64,000 nt of DNA. Origin: Chryseobacterium sp. YIM B08800. GTDB taxonomy: Bacteria > Bacteroidota > Bacteroidia > Flavobacteriales > Weeksellaceae. Below the pieces are notes generated by a model. The model saw only the letters and a list, made by a program, of their open reading frames with translations. It made no database searches and was not told the origin of the DNA. Location of the stretch: contig NZ_JAPDKN010000019.1 of assembly GCF_026163565.1 (NCBI RefSeq), positions 1 to 64,000 of the forward strand. Direction: 5' to 3'. The first letter of the stretch is position 1. Every line of letters begins with the position of its first letter. Shown one piece after another: positions 18,200 to 60,065 of the stretch. A program made the position numbers and the translations under genes.

Positions 18200-18970
18200 A
18201 TGAAGAAGATACTCCACATTATTACCATATTTACTTTCTTTTTAGGCTATTCTCAATTGACCAATGTAGCCGATGGCGAATCGATCTCTTTAAGAATACA
18301 TTATGGGTTTCTAAATGCCGGAATCGCAAATCTCACTACCAAAAAAGTTAATTACAAAGGCACTCCTCATTTATATGTAAAAGGAACCGGGCAAACAACA
18401 GGTGCTGTGAAAGCTTTTTTTAAAGTGGAAGATTTATACGAAAGCTATATTAATATCGATACAGAATTACCAAGCTTTTATGTAAGAAATGTAAAAGAAG
18501 GTAGTTACAGACAACATTTGCAAACCGTTTTTAATCACGATAATCAGACATTGATTTTAACAGATAAGAAAACTCCGGCAAATGGTTCAAAAACAATAAA
18601 ATCGGTAAAAGGTGTGCAAGACATGCTTTCATGCTTTTATTATCTGAGAAGTAAAACGCCTGCAGAATTGAAAGTAGGAACGATTATTAATATGAATGTA
18701 TGGATTGATGACGAAATGTTTCCTTTCCAGCTTAAAGTGATTGGAACCGAGAATTTAAAGACAAAGTTCGGTACTATTAATGCTTTAAAAATCATTCCTT
18801 CGGTAAAAAGCGGCAGAGTTTTTAAAGAAAAAGAAGGTGTTACGATGTGGGTAAGCAACGACTATAATCACATTCCTTTGTTACTGAAAGCAGAATTGGC
18901 GGTTGGCTCTTTAAAAGCAAGTATTGATGATTACAAGAATGTAAAATTTCCGTTAAAGTTTACAAAATAA
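18200..18970 (+). CDS. DUF3108 domain-containing secreted protein
   Basis: A 256-residue protein with a signal peptide (about residues 1-19, ends GYSQ). The body matches the DUF3108 pattern: GESISLRIHYGFLNAGIANL near the start, YLRSKTPAELKVGTI in the middle and VTMWVSNDYNHIPLLLKAELAVGSLKASI at the end. This is a beta-rich fold related to lipoprotein-carrier-like barrels, probably periplasmic. No enzymatic residues are obvious. It converges on the minus-strand RNA unit that ends immediately downstream. Confidence 0.85.
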   Translation: MKKILHIITIFTFFLGYSQLTNVADGESISLRIHYGFLNAGIANLTTKKVNYKGTPHLYVKGTGQTTGAVKAFFKVEDLYESYINIDTELPSFYVRNVKEGSYRQHLQTVFNHDNQTLILTDKKTPANGSKTIKSVKGVQDMLSCFYYLRSKTPAELKVGTIINMNVWIDDEMFPFQLKVIGTENLKTKFGTINALKIIPSVKSGRVFKEKEGVTMWVSNDYNHIPLLLKAELAVGSLKASIDDYKNVKFPLKFTK

Positions 18971-18972
18971 AA

Positions 18973-19001
18973 AAGCCTCTGAAAAAGAATTCCGGAGGCT
19001 T
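18973..19001 (-). terminator. terminator of RNA unit A
   Basis: Stem AAGCCTC/GAGGCTT plus additional pairs. The T tract lies on the minus strand. Confidence 0.75.
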
Positions 19002-19167
19002 ACCAACCTAAATTAACATACTTGTGGGATTATTTCCCAAGTATTACTATGAAAAAACTTTCCCTGTTCATATTATACAAAACTCAACTTTGTAAATAAT
19101 ACTTAGGGTTCATCATTTGTGCCTTAAAAAATCAATTTGTGTTTATACTACTTTTTAGTATCTTTTT

Positions 19168-19187
19168 GCAGAGCTTTTCAGCTCCGC
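19168..19187 (-). other. GAAA-tetraloop hairpin in RNA unit A
   Basis: On the minus strand GCGGAGCT-GAAA-AGCTCTGC gives 8 base pairs (one G-U). Homologous hairpins at 20098-20117 and 20010-20029 keep pairing despite base changes. Confidence 0.55.
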
Positions 19188-19405
19188 AATCAGACACTTT
19201 TTCTTTTTTCATCATCTATGTTTTCAAAATCAGATTCAAAATTCATTCTTATTTTAATATTAAAAAAATCCTGAACTTAATTTTAGATTAATGACTCAAA
19301 AAAATGATCTGTAAAGAAACTCTTTTTGTTCATCTTTCATAGTGTAAAAATAGTAAGATATAGAGCTATCTTCCCAATATTAATTGTAGATGTATCTCGT
19401 TAGGC

Positions 19406-19425
19406 TTGTAGATGTTTATCTACGA
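19406..19425. promoter_or_regulatory. degenerate palindrome upstream of RNA unit A
   Basis: TTGTAGAT and ATCTACGA around a 4-bp centre, one mismatch. It is a weaker copy of the perfect palindrome upstream of unit B. Confidence 0.4.
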
Positions 19426-19429
19426 AAAC

Positions 19430-19820
19430 ATTTGCTATATAGTAGAATAATTAATTCTCAAAAGAAGAAAAAAATCAAAGATCTTTAAAGATTTTTGTGG
19501 TTAAATAAGAAGTTTAAGAGCGTGTTTAAATTTTTATTAAATATTTTTCTATTGCCTTTATCTTAATTTTGACTACGTCGAAATAGCATTCATCGACTGA
19601 AAGGAGATAATCTTCAATTTCTAAATTAAAATAAACTTTGTTTATTCTTATTTTAACATTGAGGTATTTAGTCAATTAAGCAGGAAATGATTAAGAACTC
19701 AACACGTTGATTTTGTATTAAGTTTTTTAAGACGATGATCTTAATTTTTTAATGTTAAAAATAAATATCAAATTTAAACAGTCTCTAAACGAATTTAAAA
19801 TATTCAATTAAAGCTAAATA
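19430..19820. other. gene-free spacer between RNA units
   Basis: About 390 bp of A/T-rich DNA with no supported ORF. It holds only a short palindrome (AAAGATCTTT near 19477) and short repeats. No promoter matching the full consensus was seen. Confidence 0.5.
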
Positions 19821-19821
19821 A

Positions 19822-19850
19822 AAAAAACCTCCGGAAAAATCCGAAGGTTT
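19822..19850 (-). terminator. terminator of RNA unit B
   Basis: A 10-bp stem on the minus strand (AAACCTTCGG/CCGGAGGTTT with one wobble) followed by eight or more T. Confidence 0.8.
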
Positions 19851-20009
19851 ACCAACCTAAATTAACATGCTTTTGAAATCATTTTCTAGGGATTAATATG
19901 GAAAAAAATTCCCCAGTGCACATTACTTTTTTTTCAATTCCGTAACTAGTTACGTTTTTTTCATTTGTGTTTTATAAATATCTTAAGTGATCTTTTTAAG
20001 GCATCTTTT

Positions 20010-20029
20010 ACAGAGCTTTTCAGCTCTGC
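20010..20029 (-). other. second GAAA-tetraloop hairpin in RNA unit B
   Basis: GCAGAGCT-GAAA-AGCTCTGT on the minus strand, 8 pairs. An internal duplicate of the hairpin at 20098-20117. Confidence 0.5.
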
Positions 20030-20097
20030 AATGATGACACTTAGGTTAATCAATTGTGTTTATAAAAATAATTTTATTTTATTTTTAGTATCTTTTT

Positions 20098-20117
20098 ACA
20101 GAGCCTTTCAGCTCTGC
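20098..20117 (-). other. first GAAA-tetraloop hairpin in RNA unit B
   Basis: GCAGAGCT-GAAA-GGCTCTGT on the minus strand, 8 pairs including G-U wobbles that replace pairs in unit A. Confidence 0.55.
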
Positions 20118-20315
20118 AATCAGACACTTATTCTTTTCTCATCATCTATGTTTTCAAATCAAGTTCAAAATTTTAAAAAGCCTGAACTTACATTTAGATT
20201 AACAACTCAAAAAAGATCCCTGTAAAGAACTTCTTTTTTCGTTCATCTTTCATGATGTAAAAATAGAAAGATATAGAGCTATCTTCCCAATATTTATTGT
20301 CGATGTTTTTCGATG

Positions 20316-20341
20316 TTTTTGTAGATAAATATCTACAAAAA
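20316..20341. promoter_or_regulatory. perfect 12-bp-arm palindrome, candidate operator
   Basis: Arms TTTTTGTAGATA and TATCTACAAAAA around a 2-bp centre. It sits about 75 bp upstream of the predicted start of RNA unit B and 28 bp after the response-regulator stop codon. The two-fold symmetry suits a dimeric LuxR-type regulator. Confidence 0.5.
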
Positions 20342-20368: not shown

Positions 20369-21013
20369 CTAATGTTGATTTTTGATTAAATCTGCTAAGT
20401 CAACAATGTTTTCGATGTGTAGTTTATCAAAAATCCTTTTTTTAATTGTACTAATGGTATTCTGCTTTACGTTGAGATTGTTTGCAATTTCGAGATTACC
20501 ATAGCCTTTTGCGTACATCTCGGCAATCTCTAATTCTCTCTCTGTAAGCCTTTGCAAAGGATTAATAATATTTCGATTCTGTAAAGAATCGATGAGCAAA
20601 CCTTGAGTAATTGAAGAAATATATTTTCCCGTTTGATGAATTTTGAGAATTGCCTCTTTTATATCATTTTCTTCACTCAATTTACTTAAGAAACCGTTTG
20701 CTCCGGCATTGATATACTTAATAGACTGTGTACTCTCGTCAACTCCGGAAAAAACAAGAATCTTAATTTCTGGTTTGAGGTTTTTAATTTGTGAAATAAT
20801 GTTCGCACTGTTTCCGTCTGGAAAAAGAGCGTCTATTATTACAATTTCTATTTGCTGCGTCTCGACAGTTTCTAAAACTTTCTGAAGAGTAGATGCGTGA
20901 AAAACTTCACCATCAAAACCAATCTCTTCTATAAGAAATTCTATCCCTTGTCTTATGAGACTGTGATCATCGGCAAGTAAAAAATTAATGGTTTTAGTAT
21001 CTAGATTATTCAT
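20369..21013 (-). CDS. LuxR/NarL-family response regulator
   Basis: A 214-residue two-component regulator. The receiver domain (about residues 8-125) has the acidic pocket ADDHS, the phospho-acceptor Asp in VIIDALFPDG, and Lys in NGFLSKLSEEND. The LuxR-type HTH (about residues 148-210) shows LTERELEIAEMYAKGYGNLEIANNLNVKQNTISTIKKRIFDKL. It overlaps the kinase gene by 4 bp (ATGA), so the two are translationally coupled partners. The gene-free RNA units lie directly downstream on the same strand and are its nearest candidate targets. Confidence 0.93.
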   Translation of the reverse strand: MNNLDTKTINFLLADDHSLIRQGIEFLIEEIGFDGEVFHASTLQKVLETVETQQIEIVIIDALFPDGNSANIISQIKNLKPEIKILVFSGVDESTQSIKYINAGANGFLSKLSEENDIKEAILKIHQTGKYISSITQGLLIDSLQNRNIINPLQRLTERELEIAEMYAKGYGNLEIANNLNVKQNTISTIKKRIFDKLHIENIVDLADLIKNQH

Positions 21014-22755
21014 TTATTGACATTCAAATTAATTGTGAAACGTACTGTTGTTCCTACATTTTGCTCACTGTCTACCGAGATATTCCCAGAATACAGCTCT
21101 ACAATTTCTTTACATAAGCTCAAACCTAAACCGGCACCCAAATTTTCTACATCTTCGGAAAGAACACCTTGATAATAAGGCTCAAATATTTTTTCGAGAT
21201 CAGATTTTGAAATTCCAACTCCGGTATCTTTTATTGTCGTGGTTAAAGAAACTGTATTTTCATCAACAGATTCGGCTTTAGTTGTAACACTTATTTCTCC
21301 GTTTTCTGTAAATTTATTGGCATTGGCAAGTATATTCATAAAAACCTGATTAATCTTGGTATTATCAGAATACACCTCAATTTCCGGATTAATATTTTTT
21401 TCTACAACAAATTTATTATTTCTTGTTTCAATATATGGTTCTATTGAATTTAAAATAGACGTAATTTCATTTTTAAGATTAAAAACCACCGGAACCAAAT
21501 GATTTTCTACATGTTGATTTTTTGTATATTCTAAAATCTGATTAGCCTGCATCAATAAAGTATTATTAGTAAAACTAATCGACTTTAAATATTCTTTAAT
21601 ACTGTCATCGTTTGTTTTTTTACTGATTTTCCTGATAAAAATACCAATAATCTTTAATGGAGAACGCAATTCGTGACTCAGCATTCCCAAAATTCTATTT
21701 TTAAAACTCAGGTTTTCTTTAATCTGCTTATTCGCAGCATTCAATCGATTTTCATATATAAATGCAATTCTGGTAAAATACATAATCAGTATAGACACGA
21801 TAAACATGAGTACCATCGCTCCAAAAATCAGATACATTCTAATTTTATCATTTTCCGAATTTCGTTTGGCATATTCTTTTTCAAGATCTGCTTTAGAATC
21901 TTTAATGGCAAAATCATAAATATTCATCACGCCATTACTATAAATCAGAAGTTTATTAAATATGGTATAAAACTTTGCATTATCACTCTGTTTTCCAACT
22001 ACTTTTACCTGTATTTTTTTTATTTCTCCGGTGTAATAGTTTTGAACAAGATTCATAACACTGTCTACATCTGCTTTTATAGAAGCTGCTTCCGGAGTTT
22101 TCCCTTGTTTTACGGTAATGATTGTGCTTTCTTTACGCACATTTTCTTTCCCGGAGATGGCATCGCCCAAACGTCCGAAAAGACCTTTTTTCTTAACAGT
22201 ATCAGTTACGGTCTTTGTTTCTACATCAAAATTATATTTATCTAAGTTATAATTACTTACATATTTTTTAAGCGAAGGCATAGAAACCGGCTCTCTAAAA
22301 TTGGATTTGGTGGAATATTGATATGTGGAATCAACCAACAGTTTCAGTTTTTTGCTTCCTAAAGAATCTGTTTTTTGAACAGTTAGTATATTTTTAAGTC
22401 TTGGATATTTAGATTCATAGCTGTTAATGTTATCTAAATTTGCACCTAATTTATCTAAAGAAGCAAAATAAGAATCCAAATACTTTTTGTCAGCCTTTAC
22501 AAGATATTGCTGAAGTGAGTTTTGAGCGTTTAAAAGTTCTTTTCTGGAGTTATCTGTTAATTTTTCAAGAGAATTAACTTCTTTTAATTGATTTTCAATA
22601 AATGCTAAATTCTTTCTACTGATAAATTCGTTATAAAAAAAGCCTGCAATGATAAGCTGTATCAATAAAATACAAAAGATAAGAGAGTAATGAACGATTT
22701 TTCTATATCTAAAATTTAACGATTTCGGTTGGTTATCTTTTGACTTCATATACAT
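21010..22755 (-). CDS. membrane sensor histidine kinase
   Basis: About 580 residues. An N-terminal transmembrane helix (HYSLIFCILLIQLIIAGFFY) is followed by a largely helical periplasmic sensor region of about 270 residues without a recognised domain. A second transmembrane helix (IFGAMVLMFIVSILIMYF) leads to a HisKA domain with the phospho-acceptor in LSHELRSPLK and a HATPase domain (NILANANKF, DTGVGIS, GAGLGLSL). The -7 box at 22811-22818 and a non-ATG longer start favour the ATG at 22755 or 22749. Signal unknown. It partners the overlapping response regulator. Confidence 0.9.
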   Translation of the reverse strand: MYMKSKDNQPKSLNFRYRKIVHYSLIFCILLIQLIIAGFFYNEFISRKNLAFIENQLKEVNSLEKLTDNSRKELLNAQNSLQQYLVKADKKYLDSYFASLDKLGANLDNINSYESKYPRLKNILTVQKTDSLGSKKLKLLVDSTYQYSTKSNFREPVSMPSLKKYVSNYNLDKYNFDVETKTVTDTVKKKGLFGRLGDAISGKENVRKESTIITVKQGKTPEAASIKADVDSVMNLVQNYYTGEIKKIQVKVVGKQSDNAKFYTIFNKLLIYSNGVMNIYDFAIKDSKADLEKEYAKRNSENDKIRMYLIFGAMVLMFIVSILIMYFTRIAFIYENRLNAANKQIKENLSFKNRILGMLSHELRSPLKIIGIFIRKISKKTNDDSIKEYLKSISFTNNTLLMQANQILEYTKNQHVENHLVPVVFNLKNEITSILNSIEPYIETRNNKFVVEKNINPEIEVYSDNTKINQVFMNILANANKFTENGEISVTTKAESVDENTVSLTTTIKDTGVGISKSDLEKIFEPYYQGVLSEDVENLGAGLGLSLCKEIVELYSGNISVDSEQNVGTTVRFTINLNVNK

Positions 22756-22810
22756 GTATTTAAAGCTTTTTTTACAATCAGTATCAGATTTAACTCTCAA
22801 CTACAGACTG

Positions 22811-29984: not shown

Positions 29985-30302
29985 AAACAAAACCTCCTTG
30001 CAATATTATTACAAGGAGGTAAAAACACAAATGATGAAAAAAAATTATTTCGAGCAACAAAGGTGAGAAAAATATTTGAATTACAAATAATAAATTAAAA
30101 AATATTTTTCAAAATTATTGTTTCTTTATGAATCATAGATATATTTCCGTTGTGAAAAAAATTCTGATTATTACTACATTTTAAACAAGATAGTTAATAT
30201 TTTCAACCAAATAATTTAAATAAATTAAAAATATTAATTAATTATAAATTTTTATTTTATTTTTTAAACTATATATTTAGCTTTGCTTTAAATAAATATA
30301 AC
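29985..30302. other. gene-free gap upstream of asnB
   Basis: 318 bp, very A/T-rich. It contains a hairpin (CCTCCTTG/CAAGGAGG, 29991-30020). Its T-tract lies on the minus strand, so it may end a minus-strand RNA rather than the PNGase gene. It also holds the asnB -7 box. Very short ORFs are present but none is rich in Asn codons, so no attenuator is indicated. Confidence 0.5.
30288..30295 (+). promoter_or_regulatory. -7 element (TAGCTTTG) of asnB
   Basis: A TAnnTTTG match ending 7 nt before the ATG, so the mRNA has almost no 5' leader. Confidence 0.6.
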
Positions 30303-59735: not shown

Positions 59736-60065
59736 CATGATTGAGGATAAATTTAAGATTGATTTACTTCGATAAGCTCAGCACAGGCTAATTCCACTTT
59801 TTTGCAATAATACATTTGAAATGACATGCGGAATTCCCCTCCTTTGGAGGGGTGGCGAAAATTTCAAAGAAATTTTTGACGGGGTGGTCTTAAACGCAAA
59901 AATTTTAATTAGCCCCGATTGCAGCGACATCCTTTTGTGTAGCGAAGCGGAACAAAAGATACAGCGGAAAGCGGGAAAAAGCTCTTAAAAAATACTACTA
60001 ATAAATAACAATGAGTGATTCTGAGATTGTTTTTTCGCTTCGCTCATCACAATGACAAATAAATT
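59736..60065. repeat. composite repeat region, no gene
   Basis: About 330 bp without an ORF. It holds an element with CCCCTCC...GGAGGGG pairing followed by GACGGGGTGGTC (about 59836-59888). Next is a block AGCCCCGAT...GAAAGCGGGAAAAAGCTC (about 59911-59987), and last the GAGATTG...CAATGAC element (60023-60056). From general knowledge such blocks are dispersed in flavobacterial genomes. Only the last has a second copy in this window. Confidence 0.6.

Follow-up and report, generated by a model that had tools for sequence, protein, structure and literature searches.

In the GacS/GacA system, a LuxR-type regulator with a palindromic upstream site is coupled to several RNAs with repeated motifs that titrate the protein CsrA/RsmA. 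Post-transcriptional control is poorly known in Bacteroidota, a phylum in which Shine-Dalgarno pairing is little used. RNA sponges acting on families of sibling sRNAs have precedents in the account given in PMC12559287, namely CrfA, the sponge of SisA-D, and QrrX, which antagonises the Qrr sibling sRNAs of Vibrio. As described there, CrfA of Caulobacter is a regulated sponge, induced by carbon starvation, which antagonises SisA-D via their shared single-stranded core, and one pairing region is described for it; SisA-D bear terminators and have unrelated promoters, and their core is an anti-Shine-Dalgarno signature acting at translation initiation (PMC12559287). FopS/GibS of Bacteroides thetaiotaomicron are described as multicopy paralogous sRNAs with a common single-stranded seed, a terminator and action near start codons; the protein RbpB works against FopS, and the word “sponge” does not appear in the main text of that report (PMC11697453). 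Rfp18 of Flavobacterium psychrophilum is described as a structured sRNA predicted to pair via its third stem-loop (PMC9723704).

Analysis of a 64,000-nt stretch of Chryseobacterium sp. YIM B08800 (hereafter the window) leads us to a reading that we regard as likely, namely that polyvalent sponge RNAs, transcribed under the control of a two-component system, act on sibling sRNAs that form a multicopy family. Such an arrangement would resemble CrfA and SisA-D, as they are described, in setting a sponge against siblings with a shared single-stranded core, terminators and unrelated 5′ parts; it differs in belonging to another phylum, in its unrelated sequences, in its tandem copies, in the presence of as many as eight sites in a scanned locus, in an adjoining two-component system, and in a core that matches an A-rich AUG region instead of the anti-Shine-Dalgarno signature of SisA-D. 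As with QrrX and Qrr, likened here by description only and from an unrelated organism, one RNA would face a family of sibling sRNAs. FopS/GibS, also compared by description only, are likewise multicopy sRNAs of the same phylum with a single-stranded core and a terminator, but FopS is countered by the RbpB protein, whereas the antagonist here is a predicted sponge RNA. Rfp18 is likewise a conserved flavobacterial sRNA, although its description, on which the comparison is based, includes no multicopy family or sponge. CrfA/SisA-D and QrrX/Qrr are the nearest of the known systems. The layout also parallels GacS/GacA and RsmY/RsmZ (CsrB/C), including a BarA/GacS-like kinase, a LuxR-type regulator, a palindrome and several repeat-motif RNAs; unlike in Gac/Rsm, the titrated factor is apparently an sRNA family, and the regulator and kinase score far under the GacA and BarA cut-offs. 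Searches of an open-access library listed no description of the core sRNA family or of the sponge, which is not proof of absence.

Direct reading of the window bears out the preliminary description of two tandem minus-strand units, with a common block, hairpin, element and terminator, which adjoin a sensor-kinase/regulator gene pair; that description did not include the upstream palindromes, the ACACAAATGATGA-like repeats or the dispersed repeat discussed below. The sensor histidine kinase gene (21010..22800, minus strand) matches Pfam HATPase_c, with HisKA slightly under the cut-off, and its NCBIfam matches include LuxQ and BarA, both far under the cut-off (136.6 bits against 890 for BarA). 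The LuxR/NarL-type response regulator gene (20369..21013, minus strand) matches Pfam Response_reg and GerE; its best NCBIfam match is UvrY/SirA/GacA at 102.9 bits, below the cut-off of 280 for membership of that equivalog. Unit B RNA (19820..20252, minus strand), with a predicted start at about 20252 and a 3′ end at a T-run, and unit A RNA (18972..19339, minus strand) were both read directly and folded, and a DUF3108 gene (Pfam) at 18200-18970 is convergent with them. The space between the units consists mostly of a dispersed repeat of about 276 bp (19514-19789), of which eight more near-full and several partial copies are present in the same genome (G000). Some of the copies lie near contig ends. 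The unit palindromes are 626 nt apart in locus L091 (genome G073) and 913 nt apart in the window, so that the dispersed repeat resembles a later insertion.

To delimit the promoters, we compared the DNA downstream of the regulator gene in related genomes. Among 148 Chryseobacterium genomes, the regulator search gave a match at E <= 1e-60 in 136 and weaker matches only in 12; of the 135 genomes other than that of the window, 100, most of them standing high in the list of matches, supplied downstream DNA. Together with the window this makes 101 loci, and as these loci are related, counts over them are not independent. A GTAGATNNNNATCTAC-like palindrome follows the LuxR/NarL-type regulator gene in 100 of the 101 loci. 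A search of the roughly 300 nt next to the regulator stop found its core TAGATNNNNATCTA intact in 39 loci, with one mismatch in 53, with two in 8 and with three in a single locus, as compared with 0, 5 and 37 shuffled sequences at 0, 1 and 2 mismatches (one shuffle per locus); hence at one mismatch or fewer there are 92 loci against 5 of 101 shuffles, and at two or fewer 100 loci against 42 shuffles. Of the 100 loci that have two mismatches or fewer, 97 show a -7-like element, T[AT]NNTTT[GA], at a fixed distance from the palindrome core, exactly 56 nt in 87 loci and 55 nt in 10, with one palindrome taken per locus. Such fixed spacing beside the regulator's own gene resembles a regulator-dependent promoter. 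In the window, the sequence scan places the palindrome GTAGATAAATATCTAC, a putative regulator site, upstream of unit B (20321..20336), and the palindrome GTAGATAAACATCTAC upstream of unit A (19408..19423); the -7-like element TATTTTTA of unit B (20258..20265, minus strand; scan and direct reading) lies 56 nt past the palindrome core, and that of unit A, also TATTTTTA (19345..19352, minus strand; direct reading), has the same spacing. The earlier view that tandem non-coding RNAs adjoin the kinase-regulator pair is supported, and to judge by their promoters they are apparently controlled by it.

The exact 20-bp palindrome TTGTAGATNNNNATCTACAA occurs 28 times in 22 of the 148 genomes, 17 times within 0.7 kb downstream of the regulator gene studied here, and its reversed control is absent (0 matches); at one mismatch the reversed control matches as often as the shorter palindrome pattern, so that only exact or RNA-linked sites count. 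Locus L101 contains six palindromes, and tandem units are seen in some genomes. In the genome of the window, a one-mismatch palindrome with repeats is located at the end of contig C53 (L196), and the start of contig C4 (L191) probably continues this repeat RNA. In positions 1-400 of L191 (G000:C4), almost identical units follow one another in tandem, showing a CTCGATGAGCC...GGCTCTCGGGT hairpin as well as ACTCAGTGATGAAAA repeats; this stretch is probably part of the third repeat RNA of this genome. An exact palindrome was also noted at L271 (G000:C91:12059), before a protein gene beginning MSKNQISVDIPENVV..., with ACACAAATTCATG in its leader; this gene is perhaps a further member of the regulon.

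Both units have a common promoter-proximal block, ATATTGGGAAGATAGCTCTATATCTT.CTATTTTTACA, seen by direct reading, and contain a GTTAATTTAGGTTGGTAA element and a 3′ terminator. The GAAA-loop hairpin is single in unit A (19168..19187) and double in unit B (20098..20117 and 20010..20029; all on the minus strand, by fold, hairpin scan and alignment), confirming the duplication noted earlier. The GTTAATTTAGGTTGGT element lies directly 5′ of the terminator in unit B (19851..19866, minus strand), where it is kept in close relatives, and in unit A (19001-19017, minus strand), and its GTTAATTTAGGT part is invariant across 12 units from close relatives. The terminator stems were located by direct reading and folding at 19826..19849 in unit B and 18975..18999 in unit A, both on the minus strand. 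Because it includes one U-G pair, the unit B stem, AACCTTCGGA/TCCGGAGGTT, can be fully paired in minus-strand RNA alone, as had been proposed; in the fold it has 11 bp. Whole-unit folds reach -90.2 kcal/mol for unit A (z -4.85) and -108.4 kcal/mol for unit B (z -5.37), with 0 of 100 shuffles equal or better in either case.

The units might instead encode small peptides beginning with MKDE, as an ATG is present in both window units. Peptide function was, however, rejected because the reading frames of units A and B diverge, with stops in different frames, in keeping with the earlier argument for RNA over peptide function; furthermore, the ATG is missing from the three units of L092, and it would lie only a few bases from the start point implied by the conserved -7-like element, at the predicted start of transcription. 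We consider a coding role scarcely credible. With the ATG at the implied start point, the promoter-proximal block is best read as promoter and not as an RNA domain.

The preliminary description had also proposed that the hairpin covaries and that the two RNAs form an sRNA pair acting in trans. Covariation proved weaker than claimed: among 12 aligned units from close relatives, RNAalifold gave two-sided changes in 2 of 37 consensus pairs and an unfavourable covariation term of +0.47, which comes near to the lack of significant covariation that the preliminary description had named as a refutation. The hairpin table, in which 399 of 408 cells are paired, was selected on pairing and mixes two registers, and is therefore no test. 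Direct regulation of mRNAs by the unit RNAs as sRNA twins, via the GAAA hairpins or the GTTAATTTAGG element and with the repeats in a secondary role, would agree with the conservation of the GTTAATTTAGGT element and the hairpins in close relatives, but GCAGAGC-GAAA-GCTCTG-type hairpins are found in 40 of the 101 loci, by a scan which itself selects on pairing, as against pairing sites in 96 of 101 (see below), many loci appear by eye to be devoid of the GTTAATTTAGG element, and the covariation is weak; we therefore regard this explanation as decidedly improbable. Action in trans is still probable. The hairpins seem to be spacers between the repeats; it is the repeat that is conserved, and since it complements the core of sRNAs that form a distinct multicopy family, the likely partners are other sRNAs. 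The sponge reading is untouched by the weak hairpin covariation, because it rests on the repeats and the promoter. When compared with Rfam, the unit RNAs gave no CsrB/RsmY-type match at E values up to 10, and they do not match RF01705, the Flavo-1 RNA mentioned in the preliminary description. The sole Flavo-1 match in the window is elsewhere, outside the units (59907-59982, plus strand; 65.1 bits).

The unit RNAs carry copies of the motif ACACAAAUGAUGA, often lying between hairpins. The reverse complement of this motif is UUUUCAUCAUUUGUGUUUUU, which forms the unvarying core of sRNAs belonging to a multicopy family. The constant part of the RNA bodies between species is ACACAAATGATGA: in a 790-nt stretch from each of the 101 loci, searched with up to two mismatches, the sense strand contains 178 copies (48 exact, 58 with one mismatch and 72 with two) and the other strand 4, all with two mismatches, while 13 of the 101 stretches contain no copy within two mismatches. 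For a longer form of the motif pattern there are 50 sense copies and 0 antisense copies. With ViennaRNA, we calculated the energy of duplexes formed with the central 17 nt of the core, for which perfect pairing yields -20.2 kcal/mol, over 550 nt per locus. At -14 kcal/mol or below, 186 sites were found in the sense strand, 2 in the antisense strand and 0 in shuffles (one per locus), corresponding to 96, 2 and 0 of the 101 loci, respectively. The scanned 550 nt of L092, L136, L156, L180 and L187 contain no such site; the third unit of L092, outside the scanned stretch, has a AAAACACGAATGATGA copy. Since the motif was first found in the sponges, the sense-strand excess restates the conservation of the motif. 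What is independent of this order of discovery is that a multicopy family of putative sRNAs with terminators has, as its invariant core, the exact complement of the motif.

In the window, pairing sites reach -19.5, -13.8 and -11.4 kcal/mol in unit B and -19.8 and -19.4 kcal/mol in unit A, while the antisense strand and the inserted dispersed repeat have no site at -11 or below; shuffled sequences have on average 0.35 sites at that threshold for unit B (maximum 2) and 0.125 for unit A (maximum 1). All repeats are on the minus strand. In unit B they are B1, ACATAGATGATGA (20139..20151; -19.5 kcal/mol, mean unpaired probability 0.77), the weak B2, ACACAATTGATTA (20047..20059; -11.4, 0.65), and B3, ACACAAATGAAAA (19958..19970; -13.8, 0.86); in unit A they are A1, also ACATAGATGATGA (19209..19221; -19.4, 0.41), the weak A2, ACACAAATTGATT (19130..19142; no site at -11 or below, 0.59), and A3, GCACAAATGATGA (19110..19122; -19.8, 0.71). 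The window repeats are thus imperfect, with two of the six weak. The mean unpaired probability of the whole unit is 0.41 for B and 0.38 for A, and repeat A1 is no more unpaired than the unit A average. Of 202 repeat substitutions, 94 keep pairing (A to G 80, C to T 14) over 9 motif positions and 29 break it (G to A 25, T to C 4) over 4, a modest per-position excess that provides weak support. Judged by sequence alone, the units are non-coding and possess their own promoter and terminator, and they are complementary to the shared core of several sRNAs, as would be expected of a sponge.

Searching the genome of the window with ACACAAATGATGA yielded 11 exact matches. At five of these (L193, L195, L198, L200 and L201), the opposite strand reads TTTTCATCATTTGTGTTTTT, followed directly by a terminator hairpin and a T-run, and L206 is a sixth core-terminator member with one mismatch; the remaining exact matches are L191, L196 (the third repeat RNA), L192 (a gene start), L199 (within a gene), L194 and L197. 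At L194 (G000:C48:43481-46493), a transcript-like stretch at about 1500 contains a TATATTTG element and three ACACAA-type repeats, with no palindrome seen there; it is possibly a further sponge or an mRNA leader. The core sRNA family thus has at least five members in this genome, one of them within the window (29985..30052, minus strand; ends assigned by eye), where the core TTTTTTTTCATCATTTGTGTTTTT at 30044-30021 is followed by an intrinsic terminator. This member sits between two plus-strand genes, and its core is single-stranded in the predicted fold.

The exact core 20-mer is present in all 148 Chryseobacterium genomes, in 2 to 11 copies each, which include sponge repeats and chance copies; the reversed control gave 0. 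Outside the genus, it is found in 93 of 147 genomes of the family, and in 21 of 33 genera counting Chryseobacterium itself, and the core 19-mer in 45 of 49 family genomes versus none of 247 from the remainder of the order, with one match to the reversed control. The 12 of the 148 genus genomes without a close regulator nevertheless keep the core. A core scan of a named collection returned at least 118 stretches, and among 80 listed matches 79 are from Chryseobacterium, Epilithonimonas or a Weeksellaceae bin and one is from Ruminococcus bromii, where the core copy is without a terminator. The stretches so listed, with copies near stretch ends left out, contain 122 distinct copies, and in 112 of them an intrinsic terminator directly follows the core. 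In the opposite direction 4 of the 122 have one, and among control positions terminators follow 125 of 2440 chosen at random and 487 of 10337 other T5 runs. In the listed stretches, TAnnTTTG occurs within 110 nt upstream of the core in 41 of the 122 copies, against 153 of 2440 random places. The sequences 5′ of the core fall into five rough unrelated classes for 105 of 201 distinct copies, the 96 unclassified ones including non-sRNA copies, and the type CCTTGAATGAGG... recurs in 30 of the 201. The unrelated 5′ types and differing terminator stems identify the core as the shared part. Six core sRNA copies compared with Rfam 15 gave no match at the gathering score, only weak unrelated ones. In L228, L232, L237, L240, L243, L247 and L248, two same-strand cores with differing 5′ types lie about 290-1360 nt apart.

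No compensatory change between core and repeat was found in the 13 family genomes searched with two mismatches allowed, because the core hardly varies. Genomes G176, G249 and G258 have the exact 18-mer core, each in an sRNA-like stretch that by eye resembles the common type-1 sRNA. Other two-mismatch core matches are scattered, several at gene starts, and as the reversed control matches in most of the 13 genomes, such matches are partly due to chance.

The core is the complement of an A-rich start region, AAAACACAAAUGAUGAAAA, and the start consensus of 512 ORFs in the genome of the window is A-rich, so the sRNAs probably act at start codons; an A-rich AUG match fits a phylum with little Shine-Dalgarno use. 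The same resemblance lends itself to two other interpretations of the repeats. They could bind an RNA-binding protein of A-rich start regions, with the regulator-controlled RNA titrating it as a CsrB/RsmY-like decoy, which would match both the layout and the logic of GacA-RsmYZ, where the repeated motif likewise lies between hairpins; yet chance would then have to account for the terminator-linked multicopy sRNA core, which is exactly the motif's reverse complement. In addition, proteins seldom need a site as long as 13 nt, and A to G, the most frequent substitution with 80 of 202, keeps pairing with U, even if a general transition excess could explain part of it. We deem such a protein decoy unlikely. 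The repeats could also serve as ribosome decoys, with AUGAUGA mimicking start codons in an A-rich context like that of the ORF consensus and titrating initiation factors or ribosomes, but neither AUG is strictly kept, with changes at positions 6 and 11, and the sRNA core would again be left unexplained, which makes this interpretation very improbable.

The sponge reading, for which the promoter layout, the repeats, the complementarity, the sRNA family and the conservation in the lineage can be read from the DNA, would operate as follows. Upon stimulation of the kinase, the phosphorylated LuxR-type regulator would bind the palindrome, which lies 55-56 nt ahead of the -7-like element, and so switch on units B and A and probably the third repeat RNA as well. 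Each unit RNA would expose copies of the ACACAAAUGAUGA-like motif between its hairpins, and each copy could pair with the core UUUUCAUCAUUUGUGUUUUU just before the terminator of at least five sRNAs encoded in the same genome. Pairing would titrate or co-degrade the core sRNA family, and the target mRNAs would be relieved. The signal, binding by the regulator, expression, duplex formation, titration or co-degradation, the direction of the effect (de-repression) and the targets are all inferred in this scheme. More tentatively, and with somewhat less than even confidence, we propose that the system represents an all-RNA counterpart of Gac/Rsm in Bacteroidota, spread through one family, with an anti-start-codon core and with site and copy numbers expanded repeatedly.

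Two nameless RNA classes would here explain each other, a genus-wide sRNA family (148 of 148 genomes) and its array-like antagonist wired to a kinase. If this is true, a single signal would free an entire sRNA regulon in one step, the design would be convergent with CsrB/RsmY decoys and with alphaproteobacterial anti-Shine-Dalgarno siblings, and the anti-start-codon core would be the analogue of anti-Shine-Dalgarno sRNAs in bacteria using little Shine-Dalgarno pairing. With the core known, targets and signal would then become directly testable. The strongest start-codon site among those seen in the genome of the window belongs to the L192 gene (261 aa, no Pfam family). It is unconserved, being present in that gene and in one of 21 other readable orthologues (30 loci compared, 2 with an internal stop excluded, 22 of 28 with a usable ATG), and several of the ATGs chosen may not be true starts. 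When 1735 ORF starts were ranked by duplex energy, many secreted proteins appeared near the top by eye; as this ranking is uncontrolled, no target is claimed.

Other genera of the family repeat the same layout, with seven sites about 40 nt apart in L311 and eight in L310. In a second genus (g9), sites are found in 10 of 15 loci, two of them with seven sites and one with eight, and the other 5 of the 15 have no strong site. Among 20 more distant loci, 12 have no strong site, and nine of these twelve are of a glycosyltransferase type, in which a palindrome-like stretch is followed by a gene for a 461-aa family-2 glycosyltransferase instead of repeats. There are ten loci of this type among the 20 (L321, L322, L328, L331, L332, L334, L335, L337, L338 and L339), with regulators 45-54% identical; the assignment is based on Pfam for L338 (gene at 237-1619) and on length for L338 and L331, the others and the palindrome-like stretches being identified by eye. 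L337, of this type, has a marginal site of -14.3, and L323 and L327 have neither repeats nor the glycosyltransferase gene. Genome G211 contains two regulators of this kind: the glycosyltransferase gene comes after one of them (L334), and downstream of the other is a sponge-like stretch in which no strong site occurs (L333). It may be that the regulator either gave up or took on the control of exopolysaccharide.
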